A stretch of 56,033 bases of DNA from Verrucomicrobiota bacterium (GTDB lineage Bacteria; Verrucomicrobiota; Verrucomicrobiia; Limisphaerales; SIBE01): positions 1 to 56,033 of the forward strand of contig JACQWK010000120.1 in assembly GCA_016209525.1 (NCBI GenBank). The letters run 5' to 3'. The notes beneath the pieces are model-generated. The model did not search any database and had not been told where the DNA came from. It worked only from the letters and a program-made list of their open reading frames with translations. Shown one piece after another: positions 36,629 to 54,328 of the stretch (the stretch's first letter is position 1; the number at the start of each line of letters is the position of its first letter). A program made the translations under genes and the position numbers.

Positions 36629-36846
36629 GGTCGCGGAGCGATCATCCGACGGTAGCCGTGGCTTTCAAGCCACGGTAGGCGTGGGAATTACGCGATGCGT
36701 CGCGGAGCGACGAATGAAACATCGGCTCACGGACACGTTTCGATCGTCGCTCCGCGACGCAATGAATGAAGGGACGCCGGTCCGTGGGCTGAAGCCCACG
36801 GCTACTGTCGAATGCCGCTCCGCGGCACAATGGATGGGATCAATCC
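36629..36846. repeat. REP array, downstream side of RAYT
   Basis: REP cores of type GTCGCTCCGCGAC or its complement at 36629, 36697, 36744 and 36814, alternating with a second palindrome (GTGGCTTTCAAGCCAC at about 36657; GTGGGCTGAAGCCCAC at about 36784; GGGATCAATCCC at about 36838). Confidence 0.9.
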
Positions 36847-37292
36847 CACAAATACCGTTCGTCGTATTCGATTTCGTACCGAACCAGAAAGGCCAGGTAC
36901 TCCTCCTGGAACGTCTTAACCCGATGGTGTTCGGGTTGCTTGCGGATGTAATCCACCACTTCATTCAGGTTCGACTTGCTGACCGTGAAGGCGGCATAAC
37001 CATCCTGCCAGGCGAAGCCCCGCATTCCAGGGCACGCATCTTTGATCCATTTTGATGAGCCGCCTTTGATGATTTGCACGGCCTTGCTCACGGCTTGCGT
37101 GGGTGGGATCGCGAGCGCGAGGTGAACATGATCGGGCATCCCGCCAACGAGAATTGCTTTCAAACCGTTTTCACGAGCGATACCACCGAGGTACGTCCAG
37201 AGGCGTTCCTGAATGTCGGAGCGAATCCAAGGTTCGCGGTGTTTCGTGGAGAATATGATGTGATAATGCAGCGAGGTGAAGGTGTCGGCCAT
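36840..37292 (-). mobile_element. REP-associated tyrosine transposase (RAYT, IS200/IS605 Y1 family)
   Basis: 150 residues with start at MADTFTSLHYHIIFSTKHRE. HUH motif HVHLAL at about residues 63-68 and the nucleophile Tyr in VVDYIRKQPEHHR at about residue 116. The ending FLVRYEIEYDERYLW is common in RAYT proteins. These enzymes cut and join single-stranded DNA at REP hairpins. There are no IS200-type left and right ends; instead both flanks carry REP palindromes, the usual RAYT arrangement, so it is more likely a domesticated REP-mobilising gene than an intact insertion sequence. This entry is the coding region. Confidence 0.9.
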
Positions 37293-37328
37293 AGCGGGAG
37301 AATGGCGAAGCAAGGAAGAGTTTTCAAT

Positions 37329-37663
37329 CGTCGCTCCGCGACGAATTTCGGTTGGGGATTGCCCGTCCATGGCTTCAAAGCCACGGCTACCGTCAGAGCG
37401 TCGCTCCGCGACGTGGGGGCGCCGCGGCTAATTGCACCGAGATGGGTATGCTCCAGAGGGCAAATCGCGGAGCGATGACAAGACTGTAGCGGTGGGATTG
37501 ATCCCACGGCGGGAAGAGTATTTCGCGGGCAGCCGTTGCGGACCGACGGTTGAATTCAGAAACGCGTTCGGAGGACACGTCGCTCCGCGACGTATGTGGG
37601 CCGGGTCTTGCCGTCCGTGGCATGAATGCCACGGCTACCATCAGGGCATCGCTCCGCGATGCA
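37329..37663. repeat. REP array, upstream side of RAYT
   Basis: REP cores at 37329, 37399, 37464, 37577 and 37647 (CGTCGCTCCGCGACG and variants ATCGCGGAGCGAT, GCATCGCTCCGCGATGC), alternating with palindromes of type GTGGCATGAATGCCAC, often followed by GGCTACC. Together with the other side, nine cores flank the transposase gene. Confidence 0.92.
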
Positions 37664-45837: not shown

Positions 45838-45979
45838 AGCAATTCTCATTTTAGCGTAGCGCAGGCGTCCTCGCCTGCGAGTTCGAGGGGCGTCCCGCCC
45901 CGTTTCTGTTCGAAAGCCGAGACGCCATTCGAACTCGCAGCCGGGACGGCCGCGCTACGAGGCCAAAATGAGAATTGCT
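45838..45979. repeat. Composite palindromic element C, copy 2
   Basis: Same outer ends as copy 1 (AGCAATTCTCATTTT and GCCAAAATGAGAATTGCT) but a different inner palindrome (GTAGCGCAGGCGTCCTCGCC on the left; CGGGACGGCCGCGCTAC on the right). With B3 and the heptamer array it accounts for most of the 448-bp gap. Confidence 0.92.
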
Positions 45980-52346: not shown

Positions 52347-54328
52347 AAAGAGTTCTTCGTCGAAGAGTCCGGGCGACAGAGGTTCGCGTCGTGCGTTCTC
52401 CCTCACCCCGGCCCTCTCCCCTTGGGAGAGGGGGCGAGTGTTCGGCGGCGTCAGGTGATCCGATTCGCTTGGGGCCATCCCAGCGCTGGACACGCTTCTC
52501 CCTCTCCCCTGGGGAGAGGGCCGGGGTGAGGGGGAAGGGCACGGCCAAATCCCAGCGATCAAAATTCATTGCCGAGCGCTTGCGGCTGAACCATGCCGCT
52601 CTTCTCAGCCTAGTCCTCAGCGGGCTGTGCGCCGTTTACGCAGATCAAGCGCCGGAGGGCGACGTCGTTTTCAAAGCCCTCGGCGACGAGCTGAAACGGT
52701 CCATGTCGCTCCACTTGGAAGATCTCGACAAGCCGTATCTGGTTCAGTACGCCGTCGATGATACGGTCACGCACCGCATTGCCGCGACATACGGAGCCAT
52801 CGTGAGGTCGAGTCGAAGGCGTTCACGCGTGTTGCACAGCCAAGTTCGCGTCGGTTCCTACGAACTTGATAATTCGAATTTCGCCGGGCGTGGCGGCGGA
52901 GGCCGTCGCGGTCTCGGCGTGAGCATCGAACTCCCGATTGATGACGGCTACATGGCTTTGCGGCAAGCCATCTGGCGTGCCACGGACTGGCAGTACAAGG
53001 AGGCCGTGGAGACACTTACGCAAAAGCGGGCGTATATGAAGGACCGAAACGTCGCCGATCGCCCTCGCGACTTCACCAAAGCCGACGCCATCACGGTGCT
53101 CAAAGACCGAGCCACCTTGGCGCTCGATCGGACGGTGTGGGAAGATTACATGCGGCGTATCTCCGCGCGATTTGAAGCGCACAAGCATATTCAGAATTCA
53201 GAAGCCAACCTCGCGGTGGACGCCGAGAATCGCTACCTCGTGACTTCGGAAGGCTCGCGGATGCGTCAGGGCCAAACCGAGACCGTCCTGCGGATCACGG
53301 CTGAGGCCCTGGCAGAGGATGGCGAGCGGCTGTCGGATTACCTCGCTTACCACGCGGCGACGCCGGACCGGCTTCCTGCCGCGAGCGAGGTCCTGGCGGA
53401 CGTGGACAAACTGGCCGGCAGACTGGCCGCGGCGGTTCGCGCCCCGATTCTCGAAGATTACACGGGACCGGTCCTGCTCGACGGGATAGCCGCCCCTCAG
53501 TTCTTCCGGCAATTGCTGGGGAGAGGAATTACCGGCCAGACCGATCCCGTCGGCGTGGCTCGCCTTGGCCCCCAAGGCTCGGACAATCTTGAGAACCGCC
53601 TGGGCAAACGGATCATGCCCGTCACGTTTCAAATCTTCGACGACCCGCGTCATGAAAAGTCCCAAGGCGCATTCCTCGCCGGGCGTTACGAATTCGACGA
53701 CGAAGGCATTCCCGCCCAGCGTGTGAACATCGTCGTGGATGGGAAACTCGAGGGAATGGCGATGTCCCGTATCCCGACCAAACAGTTTGTTCAATCCAAC
53801 GGACACGGGCGCCGCGCCGGCGGCGAATCGCCCCGATCCTCCATCGGCTGCCTCTTTATCGAGTCCAGCAAGAGCGAAAGCCCGGCGGATCTGAAGAAGG
53901 AACTTCTCGATGCGGCCGACTCTGAGGGATTGAAATTCGGCTTGCGGATCACGAGCTTGCAGGACCGTGCTGCCGGCGGTCCGACCGGCTTCGGCGGCCT
54001 TGGCGGACGCTTCGGCCGCGGCGGCGGCGGCGGTTCTGCCCGTGTCATTGGCGATCCGATCTCCATTTACAGAGTCTATGTCGCGGACGGGCGTGAAGAA
54101 CCGGTCCGGGGCTGCGAATTCAGCGCGGTGGATGTGCGGAGCCTGCGAAGGATCATCGCGGCGGGAGACGTGCCGACGGCGCACAACTACATCGGAAGCG
54201 GGGCGCCTGCGTCGTCCGTGATCGCCCCGGCGGTGCTCTTCGAGGAACTGGAGCTGTCGCGCATCAAGCGGGAGACCGAGAAGAAACCCATCATCGAAGC
54301 TCCCCACGCGAGGGATGAAGGGAAATAG
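52343..54328 (+). CDS. Exported TldD/E-like protein lacking the HExxxH site, with repeat-encoded N-terminal insert
   Basis: 661 residues from ATG 52343, fixed by an ATGA overlap with the preceding gene and an AAGGA upstream. Residues 1-18 are Arg-rich; residues ~19-66 (SPSPRPSPLGRG, SLSPGERAGVRGKG) are encoded by palindromic element G; the signal peptide follows at about 81-100 (LNHAALLSLVLSGLCAVYA). A TTG at 52580 is the only start after the element. The mature part parallels its neighbour (LAYHAATPDRLPAASEVLAD, YEFDDEGIPAQRVNIVVDGK, SNGHGRR), but the active-site helix is PQFFRQLLGRGITGQ, without His or Glu. It probably forms a TldE-like partner of the gene upstream. Confidence 0.85.
   Translation: MKRVLRRRVRATEVRVVRSPSPRPSPLGRGGECSAASGDPIRLGPSQRWTRFSLSPGERAGVRGKGTAKSQRSKFIAERLRLNHAALLSLVLSGLCAVYADQAPEGDVVFKALGDELKRSMSLHLEDLDKPYLVQYAVDDTVTHRIAATYGAIVRSSRRRSRVLHSQVRVGSYELDNSNFAGRGGGGRRGLGVSIELPIDDGYMALRQAIWRATDWQYKEAVETLTQKRAYMKDRNVADRPRDFTKADAITVLKDRATLALDRTVWEDYMRRISARFEAHKHIQNSEANLAVDAENRYLVTSEGSRMRQGQTETVLRITAEALAEDGERLSDYLAYHAATPDRLPAASEVLADVDKLAGRLAAAVRAPILEDYTGPVLLDGIAAPQFFRQLLGRGITGQTDPVGVARLGPQGSDNLENRLGKRIMPVTFQIFDDPRHEKSQGAFLAGRYEFDDEGIPAQRVNIVVDGKLEGMAMSRIPTKQFVQSNGHGRRAGGESPRSSIGCLFIESSKSESPADLKKELLDAADSEGLKFGLRITSLQDRAAGGPTGFGGLGGRFGRGGGGGSARVIGDPISIYRVYVADGREEPVRGCEFSAVDVRSLRRIIAAGDVPTAHNYIGSGAPASSVIAPAVLFEELELSRIKRETEKKPIIEAPHARDEGK
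52397..52537. repeat. Palindromic element G, copy 4 (double), inside a coding sequence
   Basis: CCTCACCCCGGCCCTCTCCC with GGGAGAGGG, then a 60-bp spacer, then CCCTCTCCCCTGGGGAGAGG and CCGGGGTGAGGGG. The two halves pair with each other over about 20 bp and each also forms its own hairpin. Confidence 0.9.

Follow-up and report, generated by a model that had tools for sequence, protein, structure and literature searches.

We found that a tyrosine transposase gene (tnpA) in the window, that is, the whole 56,033-nucleotide stretch of Verrucomicrobiota DNA analyzed here, lies within an array of five copies of a composite three-hairpin unit, A1-(GTAG)B-A2, of ~80 to 82 bp, and that the same architecture surrounds related genes in many phyla. 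On the evidence of sequence, the locus probably belongs to a REPtron/REPIN-like mobile-repeat system that combines a class-1 (subclass 1.2) TnpA with inverted cognate A1-(N)TAG-B-A2 composite repeats. This reading is supported by the fixed geometry of the units, their compensatory changes, one-strand polarity, and inversion around tnpA, and further by gene-less inverted pairs that end at A1, arrays that share an A hairpin, and a unit type that tracks the TnpA type. From left to right the locus reads U1(+), U2(-), tnpA(-), U3(-), U4(+), U5(-), with the following features.

36630..36711, plus strand: unit U1 (A1, 36630-36642; GTAG, 36652-36655; B, 36656-36675; A2, 36699-36711)
36746..36826, minus strand: unit U2 (A1, 36814-36826; B, 36782-36801; A2, 36746-36758)
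36835..36848, no strand: short palindrome TGGGATCAATCCCA, overlapping the 3' end of tnpA
36840..37292, minus strand: tnpA, encoding a 150-aa HUH/Y1 transposase (PF01797; E = 6.7e-31)
37330..37412, minus strand: unit U3 (A1, 37400-37412; B, 37367-37386; A2, 37330-37342)
37464..37547, plus strand: unit U4 (A1, 37464-37476; GTAG, 37486-37489; B, 37490-37509; degenerate A2, 37535-37547)
37579..37660, minus strand: unit U5 (A1, 37648-37660; B, 37615-37634; A2, 37579-37591)

The array at 36630-37660 comprises ten GTCGCTCCGCGAC-type cores (with up to two mismatches) and five longer palindromes around tnpA. At this threshold the whole window contains 12 GTCGCTCCGCGAC matches, 10 of them in the array, whereas shuffled windows had a mean of 4.57, and none of 100 shuffles reached 12. 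The initial annotation had described many REP-type cores around a single Y1 transposase gene, which agrees with these counts and with the one PF01797 gene, and its five variable palindromes with their quoted loops are present at the B positions of U1 to U5. It had also described two alternating palindromes forming a two-hairpin unit; both palindromes are indeed there, and the second has the GTAG tag usual for REPs, but instead of mere alternation we found a fixed unit of three hairpins, repeated five times.

Along the tag strand, each unit runs from A1 over 12 to 13 nt to B, and from B over about 23 to 25 nt to A2. A1 has a 5-bp stem and the loop GGA, and A2 is of the same type and direction; the linker between A1 and B measures 13 nt (12 nt in U2), its last four letters being GTAG, and the GTAG-tagged B has a stem of 8 to 9 bp. 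The tag of U2 reads CTAC at 36802-36805 on the plus strand. U1 and U3 occupy the canonical positions 3' (inverted) and 5' of tnpA, respectively. When folded as single-stranded DNA, the units from both strands exceeded almost all shuffles in stability (z, -3.2 to -4.2), and the tag strand is recognizable by its purine-first triloop. Two candidate features were rejected. Assignment to the CGTC-REP family was considered, A starting with CGTC, but in that family CGTC is an unpaired tag and the stems are 8 to 9 bp long. The position of TGGGATCAATCCCA across the tnpA stop was dropped as a meaningful feature; the syntenic locus L067 lacks TGGGATCAATCCCA, which is probably a fortuitous junction.

We obtained 80 related loci by using five diverse TnpAs of the host genome as queries, and a generic unit model (R2) was used for unit positions and genome counts. 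A unit was present within 200 nt of 62 of the 80 genes and on both sides of 46, usually inverted around the gene. Unit density reached 4.1 per kb within 200 nt of the related genes versus 0.031 per kb more than 1 kb away; 103 of 130 units by these genes were in the canonical (inverted) orientation and 27 in the reverse one, and the downstream unit mostly started 42 to 68 nt past the gene. Hairpins upstream and downstream matched each other at 45 of 85 loci (permuted mean, 3.0; maximum, 7). Other sequences fill the same positions elsewhere, for example, GTCCC-GAA-GGGAC with AATAG-CCCGGCGTTTCAACGCCGGG and GCGCC-AAC-GGCGC with CCAG-CCCAGGGCAACGCCCTGGG. As a control, class-2 Y1 genes of the host genome on the sampled contigs C522, C665, C384, C757, C412, and C323 had no unit within 1 kb. 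The loci derive from Verrucomicrobiota, Planctomycetota, Acidobacteriota, Bacteroidota, Calditrichota, Geobacter, and others, so that the arrangement is not peculiar to one phylum. Among more distant relatives, some Bacteroidota, Gemmataceae, and the C306 type have other tags or a longer B, which the model captures poorly.

Among 133 TAG/CAG-tagged B hairpins, an outer A (a 5-bp triloop hairpin) was located 11 to 13 nt upstream of B in 105 (shuffled mean, 0.5; maximum, 3), and an inner A 20 to 26 nt downstream of B in 73 (shuffled mean, 1.25; maximum, 5). The first A-loop base was a purine in 106 of 108 and 84 of 85 cases, and GNA loops numbered 126 against 3 for the complement TNC; this one-sidedness indicates that one strand is functional. 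C(GNA)G is an exceptionally stable DNA minihairpin. In 30 diverse units, two-sided changes occurred in 12 of 13 pairs (102 cells versus 23.9 in shuffled data), in support of the earlier observation that stems change while pairing is kept. Since the B hairpins were picked by stem length and tag, pairing in B is partly by construction, and the independent evidence therefore consists of the covariation in A1 and the fixed spacing of the A hairpins; A4 drew on units with 12-nt spacing. Across loci, stems and loops are replaced, and spacing and strand polarity are fixed. Furthermore, TnpA similarity tracked A, B, and the tag (Mantel r, 0.35, 0.23, and 0.42, respectively; reached by 0 of 500 permutations), an association confounded by shared ancestry. 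Tandem arrays with A hairpins in common were also found, as in L070 with a period of 69 nt. In Chthoniobacter flavus (L069), a perfect 13-bp hairpin pair, AAAAGGGCGCGGA..TCCGCGCCCTTTT, brackets the tnpA element at a distance of ~207 nt from tnpA on either side.

The genome-wide search for the core proposed in the initial annotation returned just 8 exact copies in the 10.1-Mb host genome, 5 of them in the window. This count is a misleading measure of dispersal because stems vary between families. Searched as a covariance model, the unit of the window recurs at C582 (E = 5e-18) and C178 (E = 8e-14), on contigs without a Y1 gene; the family to which this unit belongs is small, with about 7 units. 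The generic geometry, by contrast with the exact core, occurs some 95 times in the genome with the same spacing, which supports the shared spacing that the initial annotation proposed to check. R2 counts per genome are lower bounds, as no more than 150 candidates were scored in each: at least 95 units in the host genome, none in six relatives, and up to at least 148 in the others. Genomes with TnpA had a median of 19 units versus 1 in those without (Mann-Whitney P = 1.5e-4). Of the 15 relatives in which TnpA was not detected, three hold 27 to 48 units; one of the three is a 67%-complete genome, and the others may have lost the gene. Besides, the units are carried by cultured species (72 in C. 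flavus, 69 in Geobacter argillaceus, 48 in Granulicella mallensis, and 43 in Haloferula), which argues against an assembly effect.

Among the places listed, units neighboring each other within 250 bp were arranged (+,-) in 33 cases, (-,+) in none, and in the same direction in 5, as counted by eye. This excess indicates that the usual gene-less form is A1-B-A2...A2'-B'-A1', of ~200 bp, of which C25, C323, and C599 are examples in the host genome; next to the C25 pair lies a C306-type pair with a longer B. In addition to pairs, units occur singly and in tandem. Several further repeats were seen in these genomes. Another GTAG REP family is dispersed in the host genome, GTAG-GGCAGGC..GCCTGCC (L056, L158, L160, L175, L196, L198, and L201), and seems to have no A hairpins. 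A stretch of ~50 bp at L164:10194-10244 matches dozens of places with 90 to 98% identity in the same-genus genomes G001 and G002 and is either a high-copy repeat or a domain. In genome G006, three truncated tnpA copies (contigs C119, C277, and C457) all stop at about residue 71 and are perhaps a multiplied, internally deleted derivative.

Comparisons between genomes place the ends of the element at the A hairpins. Another genome of the same genus contains the C25 pair between two nonmatching flanks, and the match is limited by the outer A hairpins; in G006, synteny of the C25 element extends to just one side. In genome G029, B occurs at least 121 times, as two compensated variants, and 28 of the units there share a block of ~90 bp that begins ~5 nt ahead of A1, extends to about GACGAAAGAA past A2, and lies between unrelated flanks. 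Many units of G029 (L237-L256) are directly preceded by a REP-like palindrome, GTAGGGCKGCGCTGCCGC..GCC, so that two repeat families adjoin. Solo A hairpins were considered as empty target sites and discarded, as most A matches in G029 adjoin a B among the matches listed. A clean before/after empty site was not found in the L067 and C25/G006 comparisons. L067 has one unit per side versus three and two in the window, a difference in which gain and loss are indistinguishable; U2 has no counterpart at the equivalent place in L067, and the outer flank of U5 is syntenic with it.

The base after A2 was G in 65 of 65 units. In 73% of positions, the trinucleotide 4 to 6 nt after A2 agreed with its counterpart between A1 and the tag (shuffled, 41%; maximum of 5,000 shuffles, 51%), and it varies between loci (TGA, AGA, ACA, and CTA). 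We regard the trinucleotides after A1 and A2 as candidate sites of cleavage on the left and the right. NGA is favored in TAG units, and NCA or NTA in CAG units (Fisher's test, 5e-8; with one unit per locus, 5e-4), an association confounded by shared ancestry, from which it could have arisen. Watson-Crick pairing between tag and site was rejected, there being no simple complement, and the association alone remains.

TnpA carries HVH at residues 55 to 57, WQ at 95 and 96, the active-site stretch Y115-IRK-Q119-PE-HH (catalytic Y115, Q119, and HH at 122 and 123), and the C-terminus YDERYLWD. Quentin et al. (2018; PMC6006769) gave DH[IV]H, WQ, and Y---Q--HH in ~148 aa as key motifs of TnpA-Y1 subclass 1.2. 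With DHVH, WQ, Y-x3-Q-x2-HH, a C-terminal tail, and 150 aa, the protein is, by motifs and length, an IS200-like Y1 transposase with the subclass 1.2 signature. Its relatives retain WQ (84/84), Y-x3-Q-x2-HH (82/84), and DHxH (78/84). WQ is common to several GTAG-REP subclasses, in which this part of the protein makes contact with the tag.

An ordinary IS200/IS605-type insertion sequence with complex ends, whose internally deleted MITEs would be the dispersed pairs, would require no REP system at all, and we consider it possible but rather unlikely. The protein does look IS200-like: it passed the IS200 model NF033573 (86.7 bits; cutoff, 55), its nearest solved sequences are ISDra2 and related transposases, and its AlphaFold2 model (pLDDT, 94.7) matched ISDra2 and IS608 TnpA best in a fold comparison with the PDB, TnpA_REP (4ER8) being much weaker. 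Units bound tnpA on both sides, the ~200-bp gene-less pairs share the outline of the gene-bearing element, and relatives hold decayed and truncated tnpA copies, all of which would suit such an element. However, the host genome does not have the several near-identical tnpA copies of an insertion sequence; it has seven 1.2-like genes, and the four aligned with that of the window are diverse (37 to 51% identical to it). The tnpA of the window is syntenic and under purifying selection, with a dN/dS of 0.05 against the L067 copy (91% protein identity). L067 comes from a metagenome-assembled genome labeled Akkermansia muciniphila, a label that looks doubtful. IS200 ends have one hairpin each, on the same strand, and thus differ from inverted, TAG-tagged three-hairpin units that also occur singly and in tandem. 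Furthermore, inspection of open reading frames in the flanks of tnpA identified no TnpB.

It is very improbable that the hairpins are RNA-level terminators or mRNA stabilizers under selection and incidental to the transposase. One-strand polarity, intergenic position, and GNRA-like loops in some B hairpins would suit RNA, but the 130-fold enrichment by one gene family, the inverted orientation, the tracking of TnpA similarity, the matching sites after A1 and A2, and the sharp ends of gene-less copies do not, and no T-tract follows the hairpins of the window. A class-2 RAYT with ordinary gammaproteobacterial-type REPs, the strict sense of the "RAYT" of the initial annotation, can practically be dismissed despite the GTAG tag and the REPtron-like arrangement, since the active site has Y-x3-Q-x2-HH and not the Y---NP looked for, the protein falls below the cutoff of the REP_Tyr_transpos model (NCBIfam NF047646; 35.3 versus 80 bits), and those REPs are single hairpins rather than A-B-A.

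The REPtron/REPIN-like reading can be placed among the known systems as follows. As in REPtrons and RAYTs (TnpA_REP with REP, BIME, or REPIN; Escherichia coli, Pseudomonas, and Stenotrophomonas), a low-copy, conserved Y1 HUH transposase gene is flanked by GTAG palindromes, and strand-specific gene-less repeats are dispersed in the genome, mostly as inverted pairs. Unlike those systems, the transposase is of class 1 instead of class 2, the tag is TAG or CAG, and the unit is a fixed set of three hairpins with triloop A at constant spacing and a trinucleotide repeated after both A hairpins. REPINs and BIMEs are likewise dispersed inverted repeat pairs, but of one hairpin of 20 to 50 nt versus three hairpins in ~82 nt. 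With IS200/IS605 elements (IS608 and ISDra2), the system shares the fold, the catalytic motif, and the predicted recognition of a single-stranded DNA hairpin with a short 5' sequence; in contrast, it has inverted three-hairpin flanks rather than one subterminal hairpin per end on the same strand, its gene-less units disperse, and IS-like identical copies are absent. It is probably REPtron/REPIN-like in its working, outside the class-2 RAYT definition, and IS200/IS605-like in its protein, not in its element structure. Subclass 1.2 itself shares the motifs, the length of ~150 aa, the conserved C-terminal tail, and low copy number, but it was listed without REPs and in mostly cyanobacterial and Bacteroidetes hosts (PMC6006769), whereas units flank most members examined here (62/80 loci), mainly in Verrucomicrobiota, Planctomycetota, Acidobacteriota, and Bacteroidota.

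GTAG-tagged palindromes of PVC bacteria (the GTAG-REP superfamily) were reported by Di Nocera et al. (2013; PMC3733652), and REPs as such are therefore not new in these bacteria. The same study described TIRtrons, palindromic repeats (some of them double palindromes) flanking tyrosine transposases, but not the A-B-A unit, and the TIRYTs belong to classes 2.1, 2.2, and 2.5, not 1.2 (PMC6006769). The open-access papers that we searched contained neither an account of the A-B-A unit nor any mention of REPs in subclass 1.2.

These sequence comparisons suggest a widespread mobile-repeat system on a transposase group reported to have no such repeats. The finding is wider than the initial annotation claimed, the variant being well supported and its mechanism a prediction. 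When the tag strand is exposed, for example, as the lagging-strand template, TnpA would bind hairpin B through its TAG or CAG tag; B with its tag would be the equivalent of a REP or guide, and the GNA-loop A hairpins a second bound element. TnpA would cut after the repeated trinucleotide 4 to 6 nt 3' of A1 and of A2, excise and rejoin the piece, and insert it elsewhere, so that gene-less copies would spread in trans. Insertion at an existing A with its site may produce arrays that share an A, such as L070. Chances seem even that this is an undescribed family spanning several phyla, in which an IS200-like TnpA of class 1 (subclass 1.2) acts on a composite three-hairpin substrate, with a TAG- or CAG-tagged B kept at constant distance between two ultra-stable GNA-triloop minihairpins, cleavage occurs at the trinucleotide after each A hairpin, and tag and site coevolve as guide and target. 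For the window, we propose that TnpA is a long-established resident kept by purifying selection and that the units beside it have multiplied locally.

Because subclass 1.2 was cataloged with neither IS ends nor REPs, its substrate had been unknown; our analysis now predicts it at base resolution, including a consensus geometry, a tag, and candidate cleavage sites. Carriers can be cultured (Chthoniobacter, G. argillaceus, G. mallensis, and Haloferula), and an assay for this kind of system has been published (Corneloup et al., 2021; PMC8266576). The system would account for dispersed three-hairpin palindromic repeats of these phyla, its stem variation at fixed spacing constitutes a data set on HUH recognition of folded single-stranded DNA, and it is relevant to the question of a single or a repeated origin of domesticated REP transposases from IS200-like ancestors. 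Elsewhere in the window, positions 45856-45879 hold a GTAG palindrome of another family, GTAG-CGCAGGCGTCCTCGCCTGCG, with near copies on L051, L186, L188, and L205, and CCCTCACCCCGGCCCTCTCCC-type repeats form an inverted pair at 52396-52535 and are found in other Verrucomicrobia loci too.
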